NCBI GenBank assembly: GCA_021850985.1
Contig: JAJZJX010000017.1
Span: forward strand, 1 to 38,854
Direction: 5' to 3'
DNA: 38,854 nucleotides
DNA from: a bacterium
GTDB taxonomy: Bacteria > SZUA-79 > Acidulodesulfobacterales > Acidulodesulfobacteraceae
Positions 6,829 through 24,568 of this stretch are shown piece after piece (the stretch's first letter is position 1; each line of letters opens with the position of its first letter). The notes below the pieces were generated by a model that did no database searches, was not told the DNA's origin, and saw nothing but the letters and a program-made list of their open reading frames with translations. Position numbers and translations under genes: made by a program.

Positions 6829-6856
6829 ATTGGATTTTAATATTTTGAATTTTAAA

Positions 6857-6885
6857 TTGAATGCTTATTATCAATAATATATAAT
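6857..6885 (+). promoter_or_regulatory. Sigma70-type promoter for the ring-nuclease gene
   Basis: TTGAAT (6857-6862), a 17-bp spacer and TATAAT (6880-6885) lie just after the preceding terminator. The predicted start is about 25 nt before the ATG at 6917. Confidence 0.65.
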
Positions 6886-6916
6886 TGAATAAAATCTAAA
6901 AATAAATAAAATAGGT

Positions 6917-8062
6917 ATGAAAACGATATTAGTCAGCATAGTCGGCTTAAGCCCCCAGATAATTACCGAAACTTTATATTATTATTTGATAGAAAGAAAA
7001 CCGCCTTTTTGGATAGACGAAATTAGAGTTTTAACGACAAGCCCTGGAAAACAAAAAATAATGAATGCTCTTTTAGACAAAAATAGCGGCAAGTTTTATT
7101 CTTTCTGCAAAGACTATAATATAAATCCGGCAAGTATAAAATTCGATGAAAGCTCTATTACGGTGCTTGGTTCCGACGCTCCGATAGAAGATATAGTTTC
7201 CGATAAAGACAGCGCGATAATCGGGAACGAAATAGTTAAGTATATTAAAGAAATTACGCTGATTCCGGATTCTAAATGCATATTTTCGGCTGCGGGAGGC
7301 AGAAAAACTATGACCGCTTATCTTGCCTTAGCGGCACAGTTATACGCAAAAGACGACGATATATTGTGCCATATTTTAGTCAGCCCAGATTTTGAGTCTA
7401 ATAAAGATTTTTATTATATACCGCCTGAAAATCAAAAAATAGAAGTTAAAGATGTGTCGGGTAAAACTCTAAAAATTTTAGAAACTAAAGACGCTAAAAT
7501 TTTTTCCTCTGAAATAGTTTTTTTAAAATTGAGAAAACTTTTAAACATTAAAGACGACCTTTTTTACGACGATTTAGTCGGAATAGCCCAGAAAAAAATA
7601 GATTATTGCGGAGACAAAATTGTCGCTTTCGATATTAAAAATAATTCCGTTCTTTTGGGAAACAAAAAAATCACGCTCCGCCCTATAGAATTATGCATAT
7701 ATTATCTGTTCTATTATCTCAAAATTAAATGTAAAAACGATTTTTGCGGGGATTGTACCGACTGCTATCTCTCCGTGAACGACCTTTATTCGGATGAAAA
7801 TGTTAATATTATTTTAAGCGTTTACGAAAAAATTTATTCCAAAAACAGCGGACAATACGAAAGACTGGCTGAATCTTTTAAAAAACAAAGCAAGGGCGAC
7901 GAATTTTTTATGCAGAATATTTCAAATATAAACAAAAAAATCAAAAAACAGCTAAATCCATTTGAATACGCGATTTATAAGATATCCAAAACCGGAAATT
8001 ACGGCAAAAGATACGGTATATTTACGGAAAAGAGAAATATTAAAATAGATAAGAAATTATAA
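6917..8062 (+). CDS. CRISPR-associated ring nuclease, NE0113 (Csm6-like CARF) family, with winged-helix-like C-terminus
   Basis: The N-terminal 210 residues match the Cas_NE0113 family: MKTILVSIVGLSPQIITETL at the start and the diagnostic SAAGGRKTMTAYLALAAQ (about residues 124-141). The fold is a Rossmann-like CARF domain that binds and, in ring nucleases, cuts cyclic oligoadenylate made by type III CRISPR Cas10. The C-terminal 170 residues contain no His, so no HEPN RNase motif exists. Instead VLLGNKKITLRPIEL, a Cys cluster (CKNDFCGDCTDC, about 252-263) and INKKIKKQL...GKRYGIF resemble an OmpR-type winged helix. I infer a cOA-responsive or cOA-degrading regulator. No Cas10 is in the window. 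The mntA-like gene follows after 19 nt. Confidence 0.85.
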   Translation: MKTILVSIVGLSPQIITETLYYYLIERKPPFWIDEIRVLTTSPGKQKIMNALLDKNSGKFYSFCKDYNINPASIKFDESSITVLGSDAPIEDIVSDKDSAIIGNEIVKYIKEITLIPDSKCIFSAAGGRKTMTAYLALAAQLYAKDDDILCHILVSPDFESNKDFYYIPPENQKIEVKDVSGKTLKILETKDAKIFSSEIVFLKLRKLLNIKDDLFYDDLVGIAQKKIDYCGDKIVAFDIKNNSVLLGNKKITLRPIELCIYYLFYYLKIKCKNDFCGDCTDCYLSVNDLYSDENVNIILSVYEKIYSKNSGQYERLAESFKKQSKGDEFFMQNISNINKKIKKQLNPFEYAIYKISKTGNYGKRYGIFTEKRNIKIDKKL

Positions 8063-8081
8063 TTTTATAGAAGGCAGATAG

Positions 8082-8384
8082 ATGAGATTAACTGAATATG
8101 AAATTAAAGCGATTAAGGAAACATCCGTAAAAGTTTTCGGTGAAGGTTCTAATACATATATATTCGGCTCAAGAGTTGACGATACAAAAAAAGGCGGAGA
8201 TATAGATATATTTATCGAAACGGATAAAAATACGGATATTTTTGAAAATAAATTAAAGTTTTTAGTGGAGCTTGAAAAAAAAATAGGTGAAAGAAAAATA
8301 GATGTTGTTATTAAGAGCGCAGATTCAGATCAAAATTTACTCATATATAAAATAGCCAAAGCACAAGGAGTGTTGCTTAAATAA
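8082..8384 (+). CDS. mntA: MntA-like nucleotidyltransferase antitoxin
   Basis: This 100-residue protein is a minimal nucleotidyltransferase with GSR (29-31) and the metal-binding pair D40 and D42 in GGDIDIFIE, followed by RKIDVVIKS with a third Asp. In MntA-HepT systems the enzyme AMPylates a Tyr of the HepT toxin and so silences it. The stop codon overlaps the start of the next gene by one base (TAATG), giving translational coupling with the toxin. An AAGGCAG ribosome-binding site precedes the ATG. It lies 19 nt after the ring nuclease on the same strand, so it probably shares its transcript. Confidence 0.88.
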   Translation: MRLTEYEIKAIKETSVKVFGEGSNTYIFGSRVDDTKKGGDIDIFIETDKNTDIFENKLKFLVELEKKIGERKIDVVIKSADSDQNLLIYKIAKAQGVLLK

Positions 8385-8872
8385 TGAACGATGAATTGAA
8401 TGTTGACCGTTTAAGACTTCTTAACTATGTCGATGAATGCGACAGGCATATAGTTAAAATAAAGCATGCTTTATCTAAAATGAAAAATTTTATGCCGCTG
8501 ACCTTGTCCGATTTTAAATCTTTATCGGAAGACGATAAAGAACATATCGACCAGCTAATATTTAGATATTCAAAATTACAAGATGCAATGGGGGAAAAAT
8601 TATTTCCTTCGATATTAAAAAATTTAAAAGAAGATTATGAACATAAACCGTTTCGCGATATAATCGACAGACTTGAAAAATTAGAAATTATCGAAAGCGC
8701 TAATGATTGGGAAGAATTAAGAAAATCCAGAAATGTTTTATCGCATGAATATTCCTCTGAAGAAAATGAATTGGTAATAAATATTAATAATGTTTATGAA
8801 AAACTAGTTCCTAAAATATTTTTAATTTACGATAGAATTATATTATACATTGAGAATAATATTGTTAAATGA
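8384..8872 (+). CDS. hepT: HepT-like HEPN ribonuclease toxin
   Basis: The 162-residue all-helical protein has the HEPN active-site motif in RKSRNVLSHEY near the C-terminus: R-x4-H-x-Y, in which R and H form the RNase site and the Tyr is the residue AMPylated by MntA in characterised pairs. It starts on the last base of the mntA stop codon, and no separate ribosome-binding site is seen. All key residues are present, so the toxin looks intact. It is longer than many HepT proteins because of an inserted loop (EHKPFRDIIDRLEKLEII), normal for the larger subfamily. Neighbouring defence genes fit the usual island setting of these pairs. Confidence 0.85.
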   Translation: MNDELNVDRLRLLNYVDECDRHIVKIKHALSKMKNFMPLTLSDFKSLSEDDKEHIDQLIFRYSKLQDAMGEKLFPSILKNLKEDYEHKPFRDIIDRLEKLEIIESANDWEELRKSRNVLSHEYSSEENELVININNVYEKLVPKIFLIYDRIILYIENNIVK

Positions 8873-8884
8873 CGATTGGATGTT

Positions 8885-8914
8885 TTGACTTTAGTGAGGA
8901 AATTGGTTTATAAT
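8885..8914 (+). promoter_or_regulatory. Sigma70-type promoter for the Bax-inhibitor-1 gene
   Basis: TTGACT (8885-8890), an 18-bp spacer and TATAAT (8909-8914) lie about 75 bp before the start codon at 8991, between it and the hepT gene. Confidence 0.55.
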
Positions 8915-8990
8915 ATTTAATATATAATTTTTTTTGATTGACAATAATTTTGACAATAAAAAATTTTTATAAAAAAAGGAGATAAAAGTT

Positions 8991-9731
8991 ATGCCGTTTG
9001 GAAATAATAATGGGTTCGGCATGGGACCGAGAAGTTACGATTACGATATTACGCGCGGAAGGGCTATGACTCAGGAGGGTCTGTCGGATTTCTTCAGGGG
9101 AGTTTTTACGTGGATGACGATAGGATTAATGCTTACGGGTTTTATATCTTATTTCGTTGCGATGGATAAACCTTTGGTAGGCTATCTTTATTCGCACGTT
9201 ATGTTATTTTATGTTTTAATGGGAATTCAATTGGCGGCGGTTCTGGGTTTGTCTTTCGGAATAAACAGGCTGCCTGCCGATATAAGCGAAGCTATATTTC
9301 TATTTTATGCGGCTCTTACCGGAGTGACTTTTTCGTTTATTTTTTTGGTATATACTAATCAGTCGATAGAAATAGTATTCTTTTTAACCGCAGTTTCTTT
9401 CGGGCTTCTTGCATTCGTCGGCTATACGACCAAAAGAGATCTGACCGAAATGGGTAATTTTATGATGGTAGGGCTTTTTGCCATAATTATAGCTATGGTG
9501 GTAAATTTTTTCCTCCACAGTTCAACCTTAATGTATGTCGTCTCCATCCTTGGAGTAGTAATTTTCTTGGGGCTTACGGCTTACGACATGCAGAAACTTA
9601 AACAGATTTATTTGAGCGGTTCGTTTGATACGAGAAAAGAGACCGTAATGGGCGCTCTTACGCTGTATCTTGACTTTATAAACCTGTTCCTTATGCTGCT
9701 TACGTTATTCGGCGGCGGGAGAAGAAGGTAA
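8991..9731 (+). CDS. Bax inhibitor-1/YccA family membrane protein
   Basis: A polar N-terminus (about 28 residues with a Tyr/Gly-rich stretch) precedes seven hydrophobic helices. The first is in FRGVFTWMTIGLMLTGFISY, a typical BI-1 entry motif, and the last segments hold GLTAYDMQKLKQIY and GALTLYLDFINLFLMLL. The conserved Asp residues of the C-terminal di-aspartyl pH sensor are plausible in TAYDMQK and YLDF. Members act in the inner membrane, some as Ca2+ leak channels and others as modulators of FtsH-type proteolysis. A strong AAGGAG lies upstream. It is a housekeeping-type gene placed between defence genes. Confidence 0.9.
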   Translation: MPFGNNNGFGMGPRSYDYDITRGRAMTQEGLSDFFRGVFTWMTIGLMLTGFISYFVAMDKPLVGYLYSHVMLFYVLMGIQLAAVLGLSFGINRLPADISEAIFLFYAALTGVTFSFIFLVYTNQSIEIVFFLTAVSFGLLAFVGYTTKRDLTEMGNFMMVGLFAIIIAMVVNFFLHSSTLMYVVSILGVVIFLGLTAYDMQKLKQIYLSGSFDTRKETVMGALTLYLDFINLFLMLLTLFGGGRRR

Positions 9732-9784
9732 ATTCGGTCAAATTATATAAAATTTATTGCAAAAAATTAATCAGGCACCTTTTC

Positions 9785-10849
9785 CTATACGATAGACGAT
9801 ACAGTATATTTTCCGTGACCGAAAGTAGTGTTTTTCCCTATATGGACTAATTCACCGAGTTTAATTATCCAAAGATACTCAAAAGGTACTTTTTCGAAAG
9901 ATAAATCGCCTATAAAGCCGCTTAATTTCATATGGGTTTTTTGCCTGTTAGAATATCGGTCTAAGGAATACCATTTTAAAGATTTTTTTGAGATTATAGG
10001 CAAGGATTTTTCGATATAGCGGTTAAAGTCTAATTCTAACTCAAACGGCGATTCATTGTCCAACGCCTTATTATCAGATGGCCAGTTATTCGACGTCGAT
10101 TTCTTAATACCCTCATCTTGCTGATTTAAACAGTGGAAAAAATTTAAGTTCGAAATTCTTCTTAAGGCGTTTCTGACATACATATGAAACTCCGGTTCCG
10201 AAACGAGTTTTTCGTTAAACATAATCCTTGTCGGCGTTATAAATTTTAAATTAACCGAAAAATTTTCTCGGTTGCTTTCAGGAATAAAATCCTCAATAGA
10301 ATAAGAATCGTTTATAGATTTTAGTTCGTCGTTTTTATAATAATATAAAATCTCACTGTCTTTATCGTTTATGATTTTAGTAATTATAAACTTGCCTTTT
10401 TTCTGCCTTCCTATACCTTTTTTACCTGCAAGTCCGAAAGAATAAGCAAAATAAGGAAATAAAGAAATTGCCTGACCGATAAGTATCAGGGAAAACCTTA
10501 TTATTTCGTCCTTTTTATAAAAGTTTTTTTGGTCTAAAGGCGGTTCGATAATATAAGGATGCGGGACGGCTGAATAATTCCTTAATTTCTGCGAATTTGC
10601 AGGCGGGGGAGAGTCGAATATTTTTTTGAACATGCAAACTTTATCGAAACTACAGCTGCTGCATTCGCCTGTATGAGATATACACATAACATCTTTAAAA
10701 ATATGTCCGAAGACTCCCCTGAAAGTGGAGCCTTTGTATTCGGGAAGAAAAACATCGTTTTCTGCTTTAATTTCAAAGTTAAATTTTGCGGCTTTGAAAT
10801 CTTTGAAAATTTTTTTTACATCCGATAAATTATCGCTGACTTTAATCAT
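9785..10849 (-). CDS. cas6: CRISPR pre-crRNA endoribonuclease Cas6 (RAMP superfamily)
   Basis: The 354-residue protein has the Cas6 RAMP layout. An N-terminal ferredoxin-like part includes LPEYKGSTFRGVFGHIF. A four-Cys zinc-type cluster follows (CISHTGECSSCSFDKVC, about residues 56-72). Mid-protein FPYFAYSFGLAGKKGIGRQKKGKF is a Gly-rich strand region. The C-terminal Gly-rich loop GKNTTFGHGKYTV is the Cas6 signature. Cas6 cuts CRISPR precursor RNA at the repeat. No array, cas1/cas2 or effector genes are visible here, so the substrate RNA must be elsewhere, or the gene is stranded. It is convergent with the BI-1 gene and divergent from the small gene at 11066. Confidence 0.85.
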   Translation of the reverse strand: MIKVSDNLSDVKKIFKDFKAAKFNFEIKAENDVFLPEYKGSTFRGVFGHIFKDVMCISHTGECSSCSFDKVCMFKKIFDSPPPANSQKLRNYSAVPHPYIIEPPLDQKNFYKKDEIIRFSLILIGQAISLFPYFAYSFGLAGKKGIGRQKKGKFIITKIINDKDSEILYYYKNDELKSINDSYSIEDFIPESNRENFSVNLKFITPTRIMFNEKLVSEPEFHMYVRNALRRISNLNFFHCLNQQDEGIKKSTSNNWPSDNKALDNESPFELELDFNRYIEKSLPIISKKSLKWYSLDRYSNRQKTHMKLSGFIGDLSFEKVPFEYLWIIKLGELVHIGKNTTFGHGKYTVSSIV

Positions 10850-10940
10850 AAAAACAATATAGCATATTAAAAAATTTTTTAAAACTTAAAACAATGTTGT
10901 ATAAGGCGCAACTTATTTTAAATATTATATAATTTATTTA

Positions 10941-10970
10941 TTGCAATATACGTTTTTATTAATATATAAT
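10941..10970 (+). promoter_or_regulatory. Sigma70-type promoter for the small Csx3-like gene
   Basis: TTGCAA (10941-10946), an 18-bp spacer and TATAAT (10965-10970) are followed by about 90 nt of leader before the ATG at 11066. The 216-bp region between this gene and the divergent cas6 is very AT-rich and probably carries promoters for both. Confidence 0.5.
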
Positions 10971-11065: not shown

Positions 11066-11416
11066 ATGATAGAGTTGGACTTGTCGTTAAATAACGAAGA
11101 AATATATAGAGGCGTGAAAATCGAAAGTTTCGGGGGGCGCAAATCTTTTACAGTCAATCAGGGAAATCTGGACATTATAGGCAAAAATATTACCGAATAT
11201 ATAAAAAGACGGAAAGAAGACTATAAAAATAAAAATGGAGACAAAAATTTAGAAAACGAATTAAAAAATCAAACCGCTGATTTTAACGACGTAGTAATTC
11301 TGACGGGAGCAACTGCCATTCCTGTATATCTGGTTGCATTCCATATCGTAGTTCATAGTTTTCACGAAGTGCGTTATAAAAACGAAATGTATGAAGTCGT
11401 AGCGGCAAAACATTGA
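11066..11416 (+). CDS. Small conserved-looking protein, possibly Csx3-like
   Basis: An AAGGGG site 9 nt before the ATG supports translation. The 116-residue protein has a polar N-terminal half with a charged linker (KRRKEDYKNKNGDKNLENE) and a C-terminal pattern: VVILTGATAIPVYLVAFHIVVHSF, then HEVRYKNEMYEVVAAKH. Strand, Gly-rich turn, hydrophobic helix, His-rich end and final strand recall Csx3 (ring nuclease Crn3), in which a GRGP-type turn and a His-containing helix precede the strand V-x-VYD. The N-terminus does not match well and the DPR motif is absent, so this is a weak, context-aided guess. It sits between cas6 and a CARF gene. A different small CRISPR accessory protein is equally possible. 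Confidence 0.45.
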   Translation: MIELDLSLNNEEIYRGVKIESFGGRKSFTVNQGNLDIIGKNITEYIKRRKEDYKNKNGDKNLENELKNQTADFNDVVILTGATAIPVYLVAFHIVVHSFHEVRYKNEMYEVVAAKH

Positions 11417-11707: not shown

Positions 11708-12697
11708 ATGAATTTAAACGAAAGAATATCTTTTTACTATAATGAGCTAAAAAACTGGTTTCCGCTTGCCATATTAATAGCCTTATCGCTTATCTTAATA
11801 GGTATGATATCAATTTATTTTGATAATTTTTTAAGTATTATATTTAATAGCCCCGGAATTAAATTAATTATCGTATCCATCCTATTAATTATTACTTTAT
11901 TTTTAATCAACTGGCAAAGAAAAAAATTTAATAAAATTTCCATACCTATAGAAAGAAACTTGAGCGGAAAATATTTTAATTCATTAGTTCTGCCGTTATC
12001 TAATAATAATAAAATAACAGATGTTGATTACGATAAAGATCAAAATAAACTAATTGTCAGGTATGAAAATAATGAAATTGAAAGAATTAGTCATGATGAA
12101 TTAGAAGAAATTTTAAATAAATCGCCTAATTATGATAAAAACTCAAAAATATTTGCAAATTGGCAGATGCCATTGATTTCTATATATAGAAACGTAAAAT
12201 TAGAAAATGAAACAAAAGGTATAGAGCAGATATGGCTTATAGGTTCAGCTGATAAAAAAGGTTCAGCGAATGAAAAAGGTTCAGCGAATCAATTAAAGTT
12301 ATTTACAAAGATTTTATTTTCTTTTTTTAAAAACAAATTTGATATTTACGTTTACGATAAGAAAAATAATAAAGATATTAAATTAGAACATGAAAAATTA
12401 GATGTTATATTTTCACCTGAAAATATTAATAATATTGCGGTAGATTTTGAAAAATTTGAAGAAGTATATAAAACATTTAATGATATTATTAATAAAATTA
12501 AAGAAATTGGAGAGCAAAAGAATGAAGAAATCAAAGAACATGAGATAGCTATTGATATTACCGGCGGTCAAAAAACTATAAGTATTGCAGGAGCGCTGGC
12601 AACTATCAACCGTAAAACAAGAATAATTTACGTAAATACAAATAACAAACACGAAATAAAAGAAATAGATGCGATAGTGCAATCAGAACAAGGATAA
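11708..12697 (+). CDS. Two-TM membrane protein with C-terminal CARF domain
   Basis: Residues 18-38 and 50-68 are membrane helices, followed by a basic RKKFNK anchor. A soluble linker domain (about 80-165, beta-rich with DVDYDKDQNKLIVRYENNEIE) precedes a CARF-type Rossmann domain. That domain starts at IEQIWLIGSAD and contains the ligand-binding signature IDITGGQKTISIAGALATIN (about 282-301), a form shared by CARF proteins of type III CRISPR systems. Its parts match membrane CARF effectors such as Cam1, which bind cyclic tetra-adenylate and disturb the membrane. The assignment to that functional class is inference. No Shine-Dalgarno is seen. A MITE ends 47 nt upstream. Confidence 0.8.
   Translation: MNLNERISFYYNELKNWFPLAILIALSLILIGMISIYFDNFLSIIFNSPGIKLIIVSILLIITLFLINWQRKKFNKISIPIERNLSGKYFNSLVLPLSNNNKITDVDYDKDQNKLIVRYENNEIERISHDELEEILNKSPNYDKNSKIFANWQMPLISIYRNVKLENETKGIEQIWLIGSADKKGSANEKGSANQLKLFTKILFSFFKNKFDIYVYDKKNNKDIKLEHEKLDVIFSPENINNIAVDFEKFEEVYKTFNDIINKIKEIGEQKNEEIKEHEIAIDITGGQKTISIAGALATINRKTRIIYVNTNNKHEIKEIDAIVQSEQG
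12242..12289 (+). repeat. 18-bp in-frame tandem repeat inside the CARF gene
   Basis: GGTTCAGCTGATAAAAAA, GGTTCAGCGAATGAAAAA and GGTTCAGCGAAT follow directly, giving 2.7 copies that encode GSADKK-GSANEK-GSAN. It falls in the first loop after strand 1 of the CARF domain (about residues 179-194), where family members usually have a shorter loop. A repeat of 18 bp keeps frame at any copy number, so length variation between strains is possible. Confidence 0.85.
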
Positions 12698-12914
12698 TAA
12701 AATTATTATAAGTGTATTAAATTATTTGCAATTCAAATATCTAAGTTTGTTTTCTTTCATGCAAAGTTTGTCCGTTTTCAATATTGTAAGCGAACCTGAG
12801 TTGTAAAAAAATATTTATAATTGTTTTGTTTTGCATTATAATGAAAAATATTAAATAATATGAATAATAAAAGTAAAACTAACAGTTTATAACTTTCTAT
12901 TAATATTAAGTAAG

Positions 12915-14057
12915 ATGCTCTCAGACGACAATTTGGATTTAATAAGGTCTCAGATTGAAACTGCTTATAAGGCTACCGAAGAGCCGGTAGTAAATGAGCT
13001 GCGTAATTTTGCTAAACAAATTAAAGACAACATAAAAATTTTAAGACCTTATACTGCTACCGCAGTGTCGTTCGTTTCTGCCGACGGCGGCAATAATAAT
13101 ATAAAATTCAATCCTTGCGTGCTTGAACTTGTAAGAGTCGTGGATTCAAGGGGCGTTCAGTGCGCAATAGATCCTATTTTCGGCAATTCTAATGCGGCTA
13201 ATTTAAACGAAAGAGTTGAAAGAATTAAACCGCTAAAGCGTTTATGCGACGATTTAGGTTTAAACAAGTTAAGCGACATTTCATATCTATTGGCGGAAAT
13301 GGGGCAGCCGGAAAAGACGGCGTCGGCCGTCAAGGTTTATAGGGATATTGTAGAATGGGCTATTTTATACGATTTTTTATATAATGATTGGGGAAATAAT
13401 ACTATAATAATAAGAGAGGGTTTACTGCGGACAAAATCTATTAAAAATACAATATTTCCTAAATTGGATAAAAAAATAAAAGAAAAGTGCGAAGAGCATA
13501 AACAAAAAAGGAATATAAACGTCAACATTGTAGGGGTAGCAAAAGAAAGCGCCGTTATAAGCCGTCTTTCTCTTGCACTTGCTTTAGAAAATGTTTTTAA
13601 GCTGCCTTATCCATGCTATGTAAAAGTTCCTGAAGAAATAGAGCAGTACTGTTATAATTACGATAGGACTTGGTTTAATACTTTTAACGATGTTTCTTCA
13701 GAAGAAGAAAATCAGAAGTATGCATCTATGGGTAAATTATTTCTTGTTAAATTCGGAGAAGGTGCTTACGATCCAGTATGGCCGGTAGATATTGCCGTCT
13801 GGGACGTCGAAAATGCCGAAATGATTCTGGGGCAGCTGCTTCATGATGCAAGGCTTGGTTTTCCGATACCGGATTTTCCGCTTAGTATTCAAAATGCTCA
13901 CGGACATGCAAAAATTAACGGGATAGAAGTGGACTTAATTGAAGATATGCTGATAGAAGGAATAGGCAAGACTCTTACCGATTTAGAAAGAGAAAGTATA
14001 TACAGAATGAAATATCTGCATCGTAATTTAACTGGGGCGCGGTATAAAAATGCTTGA
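12915..14057 (+). CDS. nurA: NurA-domain nuclease
   Basis: The 380-residue protein shows both ends of the NurA fold. An RNase H-like strand FVSADGG carries the catalytic Asp57 near the N-terminus, and the C-terminal PIPDFPLSIQNAHGHAKI matches the conserved P-x-P...AH motif. NurA is a 5'-3' exonuclease/endonuclease that works with the HerA translocase, in archaea on double-strand break ends and in bacteria usually as part of defence modules. Its stop codon lies 8 nt inside herA (14050), so the two are translationally coupled. An alternative reading as a generic RNase H-like nuclease is possible, but the neighbour supports NurA. Confidence 0.8.
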   Translation: MLSDDNLDLIRSQIETAYKATEEPVVNELRNFAKQIKDNIKILRPYTATAVSFVSADGGNNNIKFNPCVLELVRVVDSRGVQCAIDPIFGNSNAANLNERVERIKPLKRLCDDLGLNKLSDISYLLAEMGQPEKTASAVKVYRDIVEWAILYDFLYNDWGNNTIIIREGLLRTKSIKNTIFPKLDKKIKEKCEEHKQKRNINVNIVGVAKESAVISRLSLALALENVFKLPYPCYVKVPEEIEQYCYNYDRTWFNTFNDVSSEEENQKYASMGKLFLVKFGEGAYDPVWPVDIAVWDVENAEMILGQLLHDARLGFPIPDFPLSIQNAHGHAKINGIEVDLIEDMLIEGIGKTLTDLERESIYRMKYLHRNLTGARYKNA

Positions 14058-16185
14058 GCTATTTGCAAAATCTGATGTAATGGGCATCTTTAAGGGTTCG
14101 GTGGAATCCGGCTACGAATTTTCTGCCGAGGTCGTTACTCCATACGAAGCGCGCATGCTTGAAAGACCGCAATTAGGCCAATTTTTATTAATAGAACTTG
14201 CTAATCCTCTTGAGGCTTCTCTTGCCAGAATAACTAATTTTGCGCCGGCCGGCCTTCTTTCCTCGGTAGAAGGCGAAGACTATATCATGGCTCTTCAAAA
14301 AAGATGGCAAACTGTACCTGATGATTTAAAAAGAGATAAGTTAAAATATAAAGTCCAGATTAAACTGTTAGGCGCCGTAAAAATAGCGCAGATTCAAGGA
14401 GCACAGGATAAAATTATTTTTATACCGTCTCTGCGCAGGATACCGCATCTTGGCGCTAAAGTTTCCTTTCCAAGCGATGAAGTATTAAGGGAACTATGTT
14501 CGTTAAGCCAAGGGGAAACAGATCTAGGCAATTACGTGCTTGGCGAATTTATATATTCCGGTAAAAACGAAAACACAAACACTGGCGGAAATTCCGGCGG
14601 GCAGGATTATCTTTCTAATTTTCAGTATATAGAGCCTAATCTTAACGTTAAATTTAATATAAATAATCTTGTTTCTAAAAGATCGGTCGTTTTTGCAAGA
14701 GCAGGTTACGGAAAATCAAATCTTATTAAATATCTGGTTTCGGAACTCTACAAAGATAACGGAAAGTATGCCGTAACTGACAAAAATAAAAAAGTAGGGA
14801 CGTTAATATTTGATCCCGACGGAGAATATTTTTGGCCCGATAATAAAAACAGACCGGCTTTATGCGATGTGCTGCATTTAAAAGACAACATTGCGGTTTT
14901 TACTAATAGGAAATCCATAAGTTCATATTACGGCAGTTGGAAGGCAGGAGACGTTAAGCTTAATATTAAATCTCTTTTGCCAAGGGACGTTATAGGTATT
15001 GCAATTTCGCCGGACAGGCAGGAGCAGCAAAATATTATAAAATTAAAAAGTTTAAAAATAGATAATTGGAAAAAATTGGTGGATATTATAGAAAAAGACG
15101 GCATGCAGGCAGACGATAAAGAGATAGCAAAGATTATGGGCTATAACAAAGATGCTGCTTCGGGTCAATCAGCCGAGATCAGCGCTGCAAAAAGCAATAT
15201 GTATAATTTAGTGAGCCATTTGCACGATCCTAACAGCAGATTGGTAGAGGAAGTTGAAATTTTACTGAAAGAAGGCAGGGTCGTAATAGTGGATATAAGT
15301 CTGCTTAGTTCAACCGCAGGTAATAACGTTGCAGGACTTATAATGAGGAATATATTTAATTTTAATCAGGAAAATTTCACCGGAGACGGCTCTTCTATTC
15401 CCGTTATTGCAATAATGGAGGAAGCGCAGAGCGTTTTAGGCAAATCTCTCTCCGAAACAAGTCCGTTCGTAGAATGGGTTAAAGAGGGCAGAAAATATGA
15501 TTTGGGCGCTATTATGGTAACTCAGCAGCCCGGTTCAATAGCTCCTGAAATATTAAGCCAATCTGATAATTGGTTCGTTTTTCACGTTTTATCTGAAGGC
15601 GACGCGTCCGTTTTGCAAAGATATAATTCCTTTTATTCAAAGGATATTATTTTAAATATTATCAACGAGCCTATAATAGGAAACTGCTATATGTGGAGCG
15701 CGCCTCTTCAGCCTTTTGTCCTGCCGGTAAGAATAAGAAGTTTTGAAAGCCTTTACAAAAAATATATAGTAAAAGAAGATAATCCACAGAGCAATAAAAA
15801 ATATGAAAATTCTCCCGCTATGCTTGTAGTAAAAAGAACCAACGAACGTATAAAATTAATGGCGGAGGAAGTATTTAAAGTTATAAGCAGCGAATTTAGA
15901 AACAATAAATTCAAAACTCAAGATTTTAACGATAAAAATAAAACCGGAATTTTAAAAGGCAGATTATATTATATAGTTCATGATATTAAGGAAAAAGAAG
16001 AGTTTAAAAACGAAATAAGAAAAGAAGACGATTTGTATAAACCGTTATTTAGCTGCATATTTGATTGTACTGAAGATGAAATTGAAATACTTCAGGGGCA
16101 GCATTTTATGAATGGTAAAGATGAAATTAAGCCTTTTGTCTGTGTGCCTACCGATAAATGGAACAAAAAAATGAATCAAAAATAA
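14050..16185 (+). CDS. herA: HerA-type hexameric DNA translocase
   Basis: The N-terminal HAS-barrel-like region (about 1-150) is followed by an FtsK/HerA ATPase. Walker A ARAGYGKSN lies at 216-224, FDPDGEY at 254-260, Walker B IPVIAIMEEAQ has E457/E458, EWVKEGRKYDLG supplies the arginine finger R481, and the sensor MVTQQPGSIAPEI is at 489-501. The segment ending QPFVLPVRI closes the ATPase core, and a 110-residue tail (about 600-711) is extra. HerA forms a ring that pumps DNA and drives NurA. It overlaps nurA by 8 nt and the following gene by 28 nt. Such tight packing points to a single complex of three proteins. Confidence 0.88.
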   Translation: MLELFAKSDVMGIFKGSVESGYEFSAEVVTPYEARMLERPQLGQFLLIELANPLEASLARITNFAPAGLLSSVEGEDYIMALQKRWQTVPDDLKRDKLKYKVQIKLLGAVKIAQIQGAQDKIIFIPSLRRIPHLGAKVSFPSDEVLRELCSLSQGETDLGNYVLGEFIYSGKNENTNTGGNSGGQDYLSNFQYIEPNLNVKFNINNLVSKRSVVFARAGYGKSNLIKYLVSELYKDNGKYAVTDKNKKVGTLIFDPDGEYFWPDNKNRPALCDVLHLKDNIAVFTNRKSISSYYGSWKAGDVKLNIKSLLPRDVIGIAISPDRQEQQNIIKLKSLKIDNWKKLVDIIEKDGMQADDKEIAKIMGYNKDAASGQSAEISAAKSNMYNLVSHLHDPNSRLVEEVEILLKEGRVVIVDISLLSSTAGNNVAGLIMRNIFNFNQENFTGDGSSIPVIAIMEEAQSVLGKSLSETSPFVEWVKEGRKYDLGAIMVTQQPGSIAPEILSQSDNWFVFHVLSEGDASVLQRYNSFYSKDIILNIINEPIIGNCYMWSAPLQPFVLPVRIRSFESLYKKYIVKEDNPQSNKKYENSPAMLVVKRTNERIKLMAEEVFKVISSEFRNNKFKTQDFNDKNKTGILKGRLYYIVHDIKEKEEFKNEIRKEDDLYKPLFSCIFDCTEDEIEILQGQHFMNGKDEIKPFVCVPTDKWNKKMNQK

Positions 16186-17444
16186 ACATGCCTTCTGACG
16201 ATAACTTTTATTACTTTCCTTTGCCGCCTGTATTTACGCAAAATATAGAAATTGAAAATCAGCTAATAGACAAATTAATATTAGAGTCATCCGAGTTAGA
16301 AAATGATATCGTCGCTTCCGTTTGCAGCGATCTTTCCGCATTAAATTTTAAATTTTCTTATGAAAATGGCAAATTTCAGTTTGAAAATAGCGCCTTGGAT
16401 TTAAATGATAAAGATTTTATAAGAAATTTAATGCTTCCAAGAAAAGAAGAAATTATACAAAAAAATACTAATTTTATATATAAAAATAGGGATATATTTA
16501 CTAAAAATATTGCAAACGGACACGATTGTCTTAATTCGGATATATCTCCCGTTATAGAAGTATGTGAAACCCAGAAGCAAAGAGATCTGTTCAGAATGCT
16601 AAGATATACTTGGTCTAGTCCTTATAGCGAATATGTTGGGAGACGGATTAAATTCATTATAAGAGATTCTGCTATAGACTATAAACCTGTAATAGGAATT
16701 GCCGCAATAGGCAGTTCAATAATAAGAATACCTGAAAGAGACGAATTTATAGGTTGGAACACCGAAACAAAAAATAAAAATATAGTATATTGTATGGATC
16801 TTTATGTATGCGGAGCAATACCTCCTTATTCTTATCTGCTTGGCGGAAAATTAATTGCTTATATGATGGCGTCAAAAGAGATTATAGAAATTTTTAAAAA
16901 TAGATATTTAAATCAGACTACTATAATAAATAAGAGACAATCTTCAAGACTTGCTGCAATTTTTACTACAAGTTTATATGGTAAAAGCTCTCAGTATAAT
17001 AGAATAAAATATAACGGCGAACTGTTATATAAAAGAATCGGACAAACTAAAGGTTATGGTACTTTTCAATTTTCAGAGCGCACAAAAGAACTGTTGAAAA
17101 ATTTATTAAAAGCTAAAGAAGGAAATGTCGGATACAAATTTGGAGACGGCCCAAATTATAAATTCAGATTTATTAAAAAAGCCCTTAAATTTTTAGAGAA
17201 TTTTGGTTTCAATCCAAATTTTATTTTAAATCATTCTATAAAAAGAGATATATATTATGTTCCTTTAGCATATAATTCTTTGGATTTTTTAAACGGACGC
17301 GCAGATGAATTAGAATATTTCAATTATAACAAAGATGATCTTATAGAATACTGGAAAAAAAGGTGGCTTGACGGCAGGAAAAATAATCCGAAAGTTATAG
17401 AAAATGTTTTATCGTTTTCTCCTGAAAATTTCAGCATATTATAA
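16158..17444 (+). CDS. DruA-like DUF4338 protein
   Basis: After a 150-residue N-terminal region that I do not recognise, the DUF4338 signature appears: YSEYVGRRIKFIIRD, GIAAIGSSIIRIPERDEFIGW (about 180-200), VYCMDLYVCGAIPPYSYLLG (about 210-229), then FTTSLYGKSSQYNRI and IGQTKGYGTFQF. DUF4338 is found in DruA of the Druantia defence system, where its activity is unknown. Here it overlaps herA by 28 nt. The ATG at 16158 was kept, but an in-frame ATG at 16188, just after the herA stop, is an alternative start; neither has a clear ribosome-binding site. Protein length (428) matches the longer DruA form. It is the last gene of the nurA-herA set, and an unrelated minus-strand operon converges on it. 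Confidence 0.8.
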   Translation: MEQKNESKINMPSDDNFYYFPLPPVFTQNIEIENQLIDKLILESSELENDIVASVCSDLSALNFKFSYENGKFQFENSALDLNDKDFIRNLMLPRKEEIIQKNTNFIYKNRDIFTKNIANGHDCLNSDISPVIEVCETQKQRDLFRMLRYTWSSPYSEYVGRRIKFIIRDSAIDYKPVIGIAAIGSSIIRIPERDEFIGWNTETKNKNIVYCMDLYVCGAIPPYSYLLGGKLIAYMMASKEIIEIFKNRYLNQTTIINKRQSSRLAAIFTTSLYGKSSQYNRIKYNGELLYKRIGQTKGYGTFQFSERTKELLKNLLKAKEGNVGYKFGDGPNYKFRFIKKALKFLENFGFNPNFILNHSIKRDIYYVPLAYNSLDFLNGRADELEYFNYNKDDLIEYWKKRWLDGRKNNPKVIENVLSFSPENFSIL

Positions 17445-17512: not shown

Positions 17513-18241
17513 TTAATATTTTCTCACTAAACCTACAAGTTCGCCTAATATTTTAACGCTATTTTCTTTAAGAATTAAAGGTTTAAAGGCAGGGTTCGCC
17601 GGCATAAGTTTAACGGTGCCATCTTTTAGTTTATAGTATCTTTTAAGAGTAGCTTCATATCCTTCGATAATAGCCGCAACAATCTTGCCGTTTGAAACCT
17701 CTTCCGTTTTTTTTAAAATGATAATGTCTTTGTCGGAAATCATATCTTCAATCATTGAATCGCCTTTAACTTTAAGAGCAAATAACTCTCCTGAATGTTT
17801 AGAGTTTAGCCAATTAGGTATAGAGATAGTTTCCCTTACTTGAATGGCTTCCATCGGATAACCTGCTTGAATGCAGCCGTATAAAGGTATGTTATAACTT
17901 GTATTTTTTTCCTCTAAAGAAACATTAATGGGGACCGACAAAGATTTGTATTTGTATCGTCCATCCTGCATGTCATAGACGCTAGTAGTATCAGCTTTTT
18001 TCAATATTGTGTTATTAACTTTAGCGTTAATATATTTTTCCGTTAAAAACAGAGATCTTTTTCTGCCTTTAATTGTATCTATTAAACCTCTGTCCTTTAA
18101 AGACTTTATATGTTTAGAAACTGTTGATTTTGAGGAAATGCCGATTCCTTGGCATATCTCATCGTAAGAAGGGGCATAGCCTTTTTTGCTTTCATAGTCT
18201 ATTATAAAATCAATAATATTTTTTTGTCTTTTGCTTATCAT
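17513..18241 (-). CDS. lexA: LexA-type repressor
   Basis: An N-terminal LexA winged helix (1-65, QKNIIDFIIDYESKKGYAPS and the recognition region GISSKSTVSKHIKSL) is followed by a 50-residue linker longer than usual, then the S24 peptidase domain. All self-cleavage elements are present: the Ala126-Gly127 bond in GCIQAGYP, Ser162 in KGDSMIED and Lys200 in ATLKRYYK. RecA-stimulated cleavage would inactivate the repressor after DNA damage. It sits 30 nt downstream of a DNA methyltransferase on the same strand, third in a restriction-modification operon. The operon promoter contains a GTTC-N7-GTTC box. It may be the cell's SOS repressor or a system-specific copy; sequence alone does not decide. 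Confidence 0.88.
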   Translation of the reverse strand: MISKRQKNIIDFIIDYESKKGYAPSYDEICQGIGISSKSTVSKHIKSLKDRGLIDTIKGRKRSLFLTEKYINAKVNNTILKKADTTSVYDMQDGRYKYKSLSVPINVSLEEKNTSYNIPLYGCIQAGYPMEAIQVRETISIPNWLNSKHSGELFALKVKGDSMIEDMISDKDIIILKKTEEVSNGKIVAAIIEGYEATLKRYYKLKDGTVKLMPANPAFKPLILKENSVKILGELVGLVRKY

Positions 18242-18271: not shown

Positions 18272-19096
18272 TTAATGTAAATTAACATTAAATAAATCGT
18301 CGTATTTAATAATTTTTTCTTTTTTAAAATTAAGCTTATACTCGTCAGGTATACCGCCATTATTTTTAATTCTTTTTAGTATCATATTGTAATAAATTTT
18401 ATCTATTTCTGCCGAAATATAATGTCTATTGAGCTGCTTAGTTAATAATATTTCATTGCCTGAACCTCCAAAATGAATTAAAACTATATCGCCTTCTTTC
18501 GTAGAAGCCTTCAGCAGTTTTTCCGTTAATGCGACTGGTATCTGGCATGAATGCATTGTTTTATCTTTAGATACATTTTTGACTAAATTGTAATATAACC
18601 ATGAATAAGGCATTCTGCCTTTAGAGCCGTTTAATATATTTTGTTTAATCCTTTTGTCGTTTAAATTTAAATATTCTTCAGCTACTGCATTTTTAAACCA
18701 TTGATTATTCTTAGTTTTTGTGCAATGAAGTATCGTCCTGTGTGCCGTTGTAAATCTTTTTAGGGAATGTCCAATATTTGTATTGTAAATCCAAACATAT
18801 TCATGAACATCGTAACAGGCTTTATCCAAATATTTAACCCATAAATAAGAGTTTTGTTTTGGATAATTTATAAAAAACATATTGCCTGTATCCTTTAATA
18901 CTCTATAAGATTCTTTTGCAAGCTCTATATACCATTCGATATAATTTTCAAATTTCTTGGTATATGTGTTGTTGTTGTATTTGATTCCTACATTATAGTC
19001 AGGATCGCTGTAAATCATATCCACTGAATTATCAGGTAATTTTTTCATCATTTCGATAACATCTTCGTTGTATATATTATCCAAAAAATCAATCAT
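18272..19096 (-). CDS. Type II DNA methyltransferase, beta-class amino-methylating (N6-adenine or N4-cytosine)
   Basis: The motif order is the beta class: the catalytic DPDY (31-34, in IYSDPDYNVGIKY) comes first, and the SAM-binding loop lies near the C-terminus at HFGGSGNE (208-215), followed by LNRHYISAEID. Both motifs deviate slightly from the usual DPPY and DPFxGSGTT: Pro-to-Asp in the first, and HFG for DPF plus N-E for T-T in the second. The core Asp, Tyr and Gly-rich loop are kept, so activity is plausible. It overlaps the preceding endonuclease gene by 8 nt and likely shares its recognition site. A LexA-type gene follows after 30 nt. Target sequence cannot be read from the protein. 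Confidence 0.85.
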   Translation of the reverse strand: MIDFLDNIYNEDVIEMMKKLPDNSVDMIYSDPDYNVGIKYNNNTYTKKFENYIEWYIELAKESYRVLKDTGNMFFINYPKQNSYLWVKYLDKACYDVHEYVWIYNTNIGHSLKRFTTAHRTILHCTKTKNNQWFKNAVAEEYLNLNDKRIKQNILNGSKGRMPYSWLYYNLVKNVSKDKTMHSCQIPVALTEKLLKASTKEGDIVLIHFGGSGNEILLTKQLNRHYISAEIDKIYYNMILKRIKNNGGIPDEYKLNFKKEKIIKYDDLFNVNLH

Positions 19097-19910
19097 GGAT
19101 TAGTCTCCTTCTTTCAAGTACGTACTCATTTTTTTGAATAAACTTAATTGACGTTATATCTTCAGGATTTTCGAATATATAATTGTAGAGCCTTACCTTT
19201 GAGCCTTTTGAAGTCTTTAATCTCAATAAATAACATGCAGTAAGTTTTGTTATATCGAGTTTTTTTGTTAATTTTAAATTATAATAATATCTGTAGGGAT
19301 TGTATAATTGAAAAATATTAAAATTTTTAATCCAATTAACAGAATCGACGGCGTTTTTGCCTTCAAATACAGTAACAAATCCATAATTTTCCATAGTTAA
19401 ATCGATTTCTATTTGAAGTTTTTCAAAATTCATTCGTAAATCTTTAATAAAATAATCAAAAGATATACCTCTTTTTCGTTCGCTATTATATATTTTAGGA
19501 TTGGCGGCTATATCCTGATATAAAAAATCATGAATTATCCTATGATTAAAACAAAGCGATAATACGCTGCTTTCCGAAATAGAGAAATCGTTTAAAATAC
19601 TAGGACGGTAAGGCCACTTAATGACTTCGTCTTCATTTATCGGCTCAAATTCATGAAATACTTTATTTAAACCTTTAATAAAACAATGTTTGCCTTGTCC
19701 TATATGGGCTATAAAATAATCTTCCTTTAATAAAATATCGGGATATTTTGAAGTATTGTCAAGTTTAGTTATATCATAAGGATTAGCGTTTGAAGCATAT
19801 TTTTTTAGAACTTTCTTTATTAAATCGTTACCAAAAACAAAATTGTTTTTCTTTTTACAAATTTCAAATATTTCAGCTATAATATCTTTCTTTGATTTTT
19901 TATCATTCAT
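19089..19910 (-). CDS. Probable type II restriction endonuclease
   Basis: No global family match is certain, but the protein has a PD-(D/E)xK-like core: LQIEIDLTMENYGFVTVFEGKN gives D170, then E183-x-K185, with the following FNIFQLYNPYRYYYNL helix typical of type II endonucleases in this group. The N-terminal 100 residues (KKDIIAEIFEICKK and the FVFGNDLI region) look like a winged-helix DNA-binding part. It is the first gene of the operon: 34 nt of leader from a near-consensus promoter, then an 8-nt overlap with the methyltransferase. The endonuclease-before-methyltransferase order, without a small C protein, makes the promoter's LexA-like box the natural control point. Confidence 0.75.
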   Translation of the reverse strand: MNDKKSKKDIIAEIFEICKKKNNFVFGNDLIKKVLKKYASNANPYDITKLDNTSKYPDILLKEDYFIAHIGQGKHCFIKGLNKVFHEFEPINEDEVIKWPYRPSILNDFSISESSVLSLCFNHRIIHDFLYQDIAANPKIYNSERKRGISFDYFIKDLRMNFEKLQIEIDLTMENYGFVTVFEGKNAVDSVNWIKNFNIFQLYNPYRYYYNLKLTKKLDITKLTACYLLRLKTSKGSKVRLYNYIFENPEDITSIKFIQKNEYVLERRRLIHD

Positions 19911-20011: not shown

Positions 20012-20443
20012 TTATTGTATTATGACTTCTTCTTCGGTCGGAGCGGAATTTCTGTCGGGCATAAGGTAGCTTTTAATATCTCCGGCATTTTCAGGAGTGT
20101 TTCCTTTTACCGAAAGGATTACGTAAGAGTAAAAAGGCCAGGAAGCGTTGATATCGAAGTTTGAAGGGATTGCCGGATGGTTGGGATGGGTATGGTAAAA
20201 CCCCAGAATATCAAGGTTCTCTTTCATGCAAAATTTATCCATTTCCAATATGTCTTTCGGTTCTATCTCAAAACTGTCCCAAGTTATTTTTCCGTAGCGG
20301 TTTTCTGCAGGATAGGCTTTTACGATAATCCTGTTTTCCCCTTCGATTCTTCCGAGGAGTCCCCCGCAAGCTTCATACGGGAAAATATCGGCGGCATGTT
20401 TTTTCATTATTTCCAGTTCGTTTTTTGGAATTATAATAGCCAT
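20012..20443 (-). CDS. JAMM/MPN+ metalloprotease, sulfur-carrier processing type
   Basis: The 143-residue protein carries the complete JAMM zinc site: Glu24 in YEACGGLL, His84 and His86 in GFYHTHP, Ser94 and Asp97 in IPSNFD. This minimal bacterial form (like Mec+ or HcyD) cleaves residues after the C-terminal Gly-Gly of a ubiquitin-like sulfur carrier, so that the E1-like enzyme can activate it. The operon encodes a carrier whose Gly-Gly is followed by a NIL domain, an obvious candidate substrate. It is the last gene of the SAM-riboswitch operon, 79 nt after the cysteine-synthase-like gene. It lies in the same direction as the restriction operon that starts just beyond its stop. Confidence 0.88.
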   Translation of the reverse strand: MAIIIPKNELEIMKKHAADIFPYEACGGLLGRIEGENRIIVKAYPAENRYGKITWDSFEIEPKDILEMDKFCMKENLDILGFYHTHPNHPAIPSNFDINASWPFYSYVILSVKGNTPENAGDIKSYLMPDRNSAPTEEEVIIQ

Positions 20444-24460: not shown

Positions 24461-24568
24461 TTCTTATCTTCCAGGAATGAACCTGCGGGAATTAGCACCG
24501 ATTTTATTAGAAACTAAACGGTTGCTGCGGTTTCAAAGGGCCCGTCCCTCTACCGCTCTTGATAAGAA
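24461..24568 (-). ncRNA. SAM-I (S-box) riboswitch
   Basis: Read on the minus strand, the segment matches the S-box: P1 arms TTCTTATC (24561-24568) and GATAAGAA (24461-24468), then AAGAGCGGTAGAGGGACGGG, GCCCTTTGAAACCGCAGCAACC, GGTGCTAATTCC and GCAGG in order. The kink-turn AGAGGGA and the SAM-pocket GCAACC/GGTGC parts are intact. It is followed by a strong terminator, so this is a transcription-off switch: high SAM lowers expression of the whole thrC-carrier-E1-TusA-cysM-JAMM operon. Confidence 0.95.

Follow-up and report, generated by a model that had tools for sequence, protein, structure and literature searches.

A conserved NurA-HerA-DruA gene cassette built on a TdpAB-like engine

Gene content and genomic setting of the cassette

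The window analyzed here is a whole contig of 38,854 bases, and the contig ends where the window ends. Three adjacent open reading frames on its plus strand were first called at 12915-14057, 14050-16185 and 16158-17444, and a sequence-only reading had taken them for a NurA-type nuclease, a HerA translocase and a DUF4338 protein of the DruA type. The open reading frames were found as described and profile searches assigned each family, so the trio is real. The genes of the cassette, with the probable start of DruA, and its neighbors are as follows.

9785..10849, minus strand, neighbor: Cas6 (CRISPR_Cas6, 4.8e-15; PADLOC Cas6, 1.1e-84)
11066..11416, plus strand, neighbor: weak Csx3-like protein (PADLOC Csx3, 2.5e-4)
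11708..12697, plus strand, neighbor: membrane CARF protein, Csx1/CARF-TM like (PADLOC Csx1 TM+CARF, 1.5e-21)
12915..14057, plus strand: NurA-type nuclease gene (TdpB-like), 380 amino acids; profile links to the NurA and TdpB families
14050..16185, plus strand: HerA/FtsK-type DNA translocase gene (TdpA-like), 711 amino acids; Pfam DUF87 (E 1.6e-27) and TdpA (8wet) matches
16188..17444, plus strand: DruA (DUF4338) gene, 418 amino acids from the likely start; Pfam PF14236 (E 3.8e-61)
17513-18241, minus strand, neighbor: LexA-like repressor
18272-19096, minus strand, neighbor: N6/N4 DNA methyltransferase
19089-19910, minus strand, neighbor: DUF6996/DUF6997 protein

The 8-nt overlap between the NurA and HerA genes is conserved in both sister genomes that carry the cassette (L005 and L006), but the 28-nt overlap between the HerA and DruA genes is not. 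By homolog alignment, the DruA genes of the sister genomes begin 1 and 9 nucleotides past the HerA stop codon, at the position of an internal methionine (ATG) at 16188 in the window, which makes 16158 unlikely as a start. It was probably a wrong call, the true start being 16188, from which DruA residues are numbered below. The fixed stoichiometry previously argued from the two overlaps was thus partly built on a wrong start codon and, as the longer overlap is not conserved, the overlaps are uninformative on this point. Comparison of the sister genomes indicates purifying selection on all three genes (dN/dS about 0.06, 0.06 and 0.13, respectively; overall 0.05-0.13); the cassette is therefore no chance arrangement.

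The cassette is part of a variable island of 10.3 kb that is flanked by Bax1-I and JAB genes. Besides the cassette, the island of each of the three carriers contains the Cas6, Csx3-like, membrane CARF, LexA-like, methyltransferase and DUF6996/DUF6997 genes, although the last three change position from carrier to carrier: L005 and L006 have them at other places in the island than the window does. The DUF6996/DUF6997 protein, encoded beside the N6/N4 methyltransferase, is possibly an uncharacterized restriction enzyme, perhaps that methyltransferase's own. A CARF gene also precedes the cassette in L005 and L006 and is absent around two more distant cassettes, L007 and L025, the latter having no CARF, Csx3, Cas6 or restriction-modification neighbors. 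Because the cassette occurs without them at L007 and L025, CARF, Csx3 and Cas6 were rejected as core parts: the flanking genes are defense-like, as had been noted, but do not belong to the core. Cas10 scores above the cut-off in 3/3 carriers, compared with 2/13 of the remaining genomes of the genus (p about 0.02), and the CARF genes of the island may therefore be live type III accessories.

In a close relative (G013), 182 bp take the place of the island. Since this remnant includes the tail of the CARF gene, G013 was rejected as a clean empty insertion site and appears to have lost the island by deletion. A 36-bp piece between the CARF and NurA genes (12749-12784) matches a stretch of the JAB gene at the other end of the island (20216-20251) with 86% identity; this similarity is perhaps a trace of the entry of the cassette. 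Elsewhere in the window, the region 6917-8872 contains the gene of a CRISPR-associated NE0113-type protein and, after it, a Polbeta/HepT-like toxin-antitoxin pair, of which L006 has a similar one inside its island. A SAM riboswitch (94.8 bits) is found on the minus strand at 24461-24568.

A divergent NurA nuclease and a TdpA-like motor

In HMM searches, the window NurA by itself has no match in Pfam, PADLOC or NCBIfam, including the Pfam NurA domain (PF09376), yet its relatives in L025 and L024 score above the cut-off for that domain (4e-5 and 5e-9, respectively). A profile that includes the window protein retrieves full-length homologs, nearly always adjoining HerA, and matches the TdpB of locus L071 at 1.8e-24; against solved NurA structures, the family profile matches 2ygk (5.5e-4) and 3tai (0.015). 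Residue D57, singled out earlier from the sequence, is invariant in both alignments, one of which spans nine divergent members. Other conserved residues are E147-W148 and K210, and the motif that is DGxL in most relatives takes the form EGLL (E168) in the window and in its sisters. The AlphaFold2 model is poor (pLDDT 47), so the assignment rests on sequence profiles, by which the first gene encodes a divergent NurA nuclease recognized only via its relatives.

The second gene is confirmed as a HerA translocase by its DUF87 match, with Walker A (GYGKSN) at about residues 218-223 and Walker B (IMEEAQ) at about 455-460. The best PDB match of the HerA profile is TdpA (8wet, 1.8e-75), well ahead of the repair HerA and the defense HerAs, and TdpA is again the best PDB match when the window protein is used as a single sequence (5e-21). 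The NurA-HerA pair at L071 matches TdpB and TdpA over full length (1.9e-247 and 0, respectively). By these comparisons, the NurA-HerA family of the window includes TdpB-TdpA themselves, and the engine is not new in kind. In Tdp systems, self DNA is marked with phosphorothioate, and TdpAB degrades DNA that lacks the mark.

DruA and its predicted fold

A profile search, proposed beforehand as the test of the third gene's identity, returned PF14236 over 295 of 297 positions and PADLOC DruA at 1.3e-80. Residues invariant in the alignment include W142, R152, R153, D160, R184, D185, K221, G265 and R272. A search of the AlphaFold2 model (pLDDT 79.6, pTM 0.78) against the PDB with Foldseek gave mostly acyltransferases, all weak matches, among them the nucleobase acetyltransferases NAT10 and TmcA and the acyl-homoserine-lactone synthase LasI. 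No GNAT match reaches E 1e-3 in this search (best about 0.03, best probability 0.80), and the DruA profile produced chance matches only against PDB sequences. As a result, the GNAT-like fold is suggestive and leans on one published remark, which assigns DUF4338 to the GNAT acetyltransferases (PMC10853773).

If DruA is an acetyltransferase, its substrate could be protein instead of DNA, either NurA or HerA, as an on/off switch for the nuclease, or some target in the cell. GNAT enzymes often acylate proteins, the fold matches include protein acetyltransferases, and a backup-effector role has been suggested for a DUF4338 domain fused to DndF (PMC10853773). We regard protein acetylation as unlikely, given that nucleobase acetyltransferases are among the same fold matches and that the partner swapping described below involves DNA modifiers only.

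DruA also occurs outside the three-gene set. Lone DruA genes on phage contigs L084, L086 and L090 have no NurA or HerA nearby, and that of L086 directly adjoins a DNA methyltransferase gene. A lone phage DruA would be expected of a protective DNA modifier, and a decoy role is possible too. On other viral contigs (L092:6434-15374, also L091 and L093), DruA has a second context, in which a 1198-aa DruA protein is followed by proteins of 497 and about 1285 amino acids without Pfam matches; a Hymenobacter plasmid (L020) has a similar long DruA gene. At L076:2630-4885, present in five identical copies in genome G372, a partial DruA domain is N-terminal to a Tn5-type DDE transposase (Tnp_DNA_bind, DDE_Tnp_1 and Dimer_Tnp_Tn5 domains), and many of the partial DruA matches elsewhere may be transposase fusions of this type. 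BFVD matches of the DruA model are unnamed giant-virus proteins (Faunusvirus, Yasminevirus and Dasosvirus; E 1e-14 to 1e-7).

Conservation of the three-gene set

Scanning contigs with a single DruA sequence found no locus; an alignment query found five. The set is present in the sister genomes at 79-90% identity to the window and, at about 23-31% identity and with the order DruA-NurA-HerA, in L007 from a different genus of the family. The cyanobacterium Crocosphaera has it in the order NurA-HerA-DruA (L025), and two further bacteria also carry it, L067 and L066, the latter with a frameshift that splits DruA. In L067, a NACHT-pentapeptide-repeat protein (6844-9294) is encoded directly upstream of the NurA-HerA-DruA cassette. 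A second, more distant NurA-HerA clade also has DruA: its carriers are Aphanizomenon (L023), a Desulfurococcales archaeon with the order HerA-DruA-NurA (L024), three further bacteria (L072, L073 and L075) and phage contigs L083, L085 and L087, of which L083 and L085 are identified as phage by neighboring RusA, primase, helicase and tail protein genes. The three genes are thus kept together in many distant genomes, as the sequence-only reading had supposed they might be, and in three kinds of order.

Among 386 sampled genomes, PF14236 was found in 25 and is full length in ten. The full-length DruA adjoins NurA-HerA in nine of these ten (hypergeometric probability about 5e-13) and a Druantia-like helicase in the tenth (L074). 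Genome-level co-occurrence has a chance probability of about 8e-8 for all DruA matches, or 5e-6 with the three sister genomes collapsed; G068 (a fragment) and G229 (no HerA found) were left out of the counts. We found no description of the combination in the open-access papers and family libraries consulted, and the PADLOC and NCBIfam versions used do not recognize the cassette as a system, in agreement with the earlier suggestion that NurA-HerA-DruA without the Druantia helicase was undescribed. These sequence comparisons give good support to a conserved system of three genes built on a TdpAB-like engine.

NurA-HerA is a known repair complex (PMC9960219, PMC5715905), and the cassette could be an ordinary end-resection module like archaeal HerA-NurA instead of a defense system. 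Several observations make this quite improbable. NurA-HerA genes of this family are rare and patchy, occurring in 17/386 genomes and, with DruA, in 3/16 of the window's own genus; the island that holds them is variable and reduced to a scar in G013; the set is carried on phage contigs; and the nearest solved relative of the motor is TdpA.

Exchange of the third gene

The third gene of the NurA-HerA family is a PAPS reductase, an N6/N4 DNA methyltransferase or DruA, an interchangeability that the sequence-only reading had missed. A DndC-like PAPS reductase is found beside the L071 and L015 pairs, that of L071 matching DndC and lying upstream of the pair, in the position of TdpC. The L015 locus (6900-10970), of TdpC-TdpB-TdpA-like make-up, comes from the window's genus, so both versions, that with the PAPS reductase and that with DruA, occur within this one genus. 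Methyltransferase partners were observed at L068, L069 (directly upstream of the pair), L070 and L094, and at L102 in the second clade. No partner is visible for the pair at L014, nor at L103, where the contig is short.

In the HerA tree, which carries long-branch warnings and in which L069 is labeled 'none' despite its methyltransferase partner, the window's gene falls among the methyltransferase users (98/99), apart from other DruA users, and, given the starred branches, the DruA label must have changed three times or more. The DruA tree tells a conflicting story. There, the window and L066 are joined (100/99) despite HerAs from separate clades, and the same holds for Crocosphaera (L025) and Aphanizomenon (L023; 100/99). 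Given this conflict and the position of the window's HerA among methyltransferase users, we conclude that DruA has been swapped in repeatedly, and the rebuilding of the set by exchange several times is an argument that function requires the three genes to stay together. DruA appears to replace the methyltransferase and not to be added to it, since the best match to that methyltransferase type in the complete genome G014 is a 47-residue fragment (4.5e-7). Conservation of the engine with swapping of its partner is well supported by the gene neighborhoods and trees, by which the engine has three or more interchangeable partners, DruA among them.

A proposed restriction mechanism

DruA sits where relatives of the cassette keep a DNA-marking enzyme, suggesting that DruA may itself mark DNA. 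Building on the family membership, three-gene association, common engine and third-gene exchange established above from sequence, we propose a Tdp-like restriction system in which DruA, as a GNAT-like acyltransferase, replaces the DNA-marking enzyme, a proposal that we give about an even chance of being correct. By analogy with solved relatives, the TdpA-like HerA ring would pull duplex DNA, and the TdpB-like NurA, docked on the ring, would cut the DNA fed to it. DruA, in place of TdpC or the methyltransferase, would mark the cell's own DNA, such that marked self DNA would be spared and unmarked phage or plasmid DNA drawn in and degraded. The idea that DruA is a DNA modifier draws on partner exchange and weak fold evidence, and could equally turn out right or wrong. 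Under strict self-marking, the L014 pair without a visible partner is unexplained. Phage defense by the cassette, raised as a possibility from the sequence, is likely by kinship and context.

Sharing a slot with DNA modifiers, DruA could still act as a sensor or specificity factor that recognizes a feature of invader DNA or a phage protein and licenses NurA-HerA. The adjacency data would fit any obligatory partner, and sensor subunits have been proposed for other helicase-nuclease systems. Fusion to a Tn5-type transposase fits DNA binding, and in Druantia type I DruA is encoded beside a large helicase (L016, L018 and L074), with no established marking role. We consider a sensor possible but rather doubtful, because the engine's relatives in the trees above fill this slot with enzymes known or predicted to modify DNA, because the many invariant charged residues across the fold (R152, D160, R184, D185, K221 and R272) are more enzyme-like, and because lone DruA is present in phages.

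Returning to DruA as a DNA modifier, a bolder and more tentative version is that it is a DNA-base acyltransferase installing a new self-mark, upon which a widespread form of restriction-modification is built and whose chemistry is shared by Druantia type I, lone-DruA phages and DruA-transposase fusions. For DruA, the signature of Druantia type I, no reported activity was found in the literature examined. Its exchange with phosphorothioation and methylation enzymes on one engine yields the testable prediction that DruA modifies DNA. Should the prediction hold, prokaryotic immunity would gain a new DNA modification and part of Druantia would be explained. Should it fail, the cassette would remain a conserved system of TdpAB type, with carriers among bacteria, phages and one archaeon.

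Comparison with known systems

Having DruA/DUF4338 (PF14236), the signature of Druantia type I, the cassette might be regarded as a reduced Druantia system. We find this very improbable. Druantia has the DruE helicase, and type I also DruB, DruC and DruD, all four of which the cassette lacks: no open reading frame in the 38.9-kb window exceeds the 711 amino acids of HerA, hence no DruE-type large helicase is encoded within it, and ten neighboring proteins gave no PADLOC Druantia match except DruA. Furthermore, four Druantia-I-type DruAs form one group in the DruA tree (99/99), apart from that of the window. With DruE absent from the window, identity with Druantia was rejected.

The anti-phage systems HerA-SIR2 and HerA-DUF4297 likewise combine a HerA motor with an effector, and their solved HerAs (8wiv, 8j4u and others) are distantly similar to that of the cassette. 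Their effector is SIR2 or DUF4297, neither of which was detected among the neighboring proteins with Pfam or PADLOC, whereas the effector of the cassette is NurA; most members of the cassette family also have a third gene, and their HerA resembles TdpA more closely. Archaeal and bacterial repair HerA-NurA shares both families and likely motor-nuclease docking with the cassette (4d2i and 2ygk matches). Unlike the repair pair, the cassette is patchy, mobile and accompanied by DruA, and the similarity is much lower than to TdpA. In Thermoproteales, nurA-csm6-herA clusters are located near CRISPR arrays (PMC3396285), placing NurA-HerA next to CARF-type genes; the window similarly has CARF, Csx3-like and Cas6 genes upstream, although no DruA was reported for those clusters (PMC3396285) and CARF genes are optional in the window's family.

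The closest comparison is with TdpABC, the DNA-phosphorothioation defense system of thermophiles (structures 8WET, 8WFD and 8Y1K), which shares the engine of a TdpA-like HerA and an adjacent TdpB-like NurA in a compact three-gene operon. The window's HerA is a distant relative of the L015 member, which has a Tdp-type partner (27% identity). Where TdpABC has TdpC, a DndC-like PAPS reductase, the window has DruA, and Pfam searches found no PAPS reductase among the scanned neighboring proteins. As TdpC and DruE are both missing, we class the cassette as a variant of the Tdp type, neither TdpABC proper nor Druantia.
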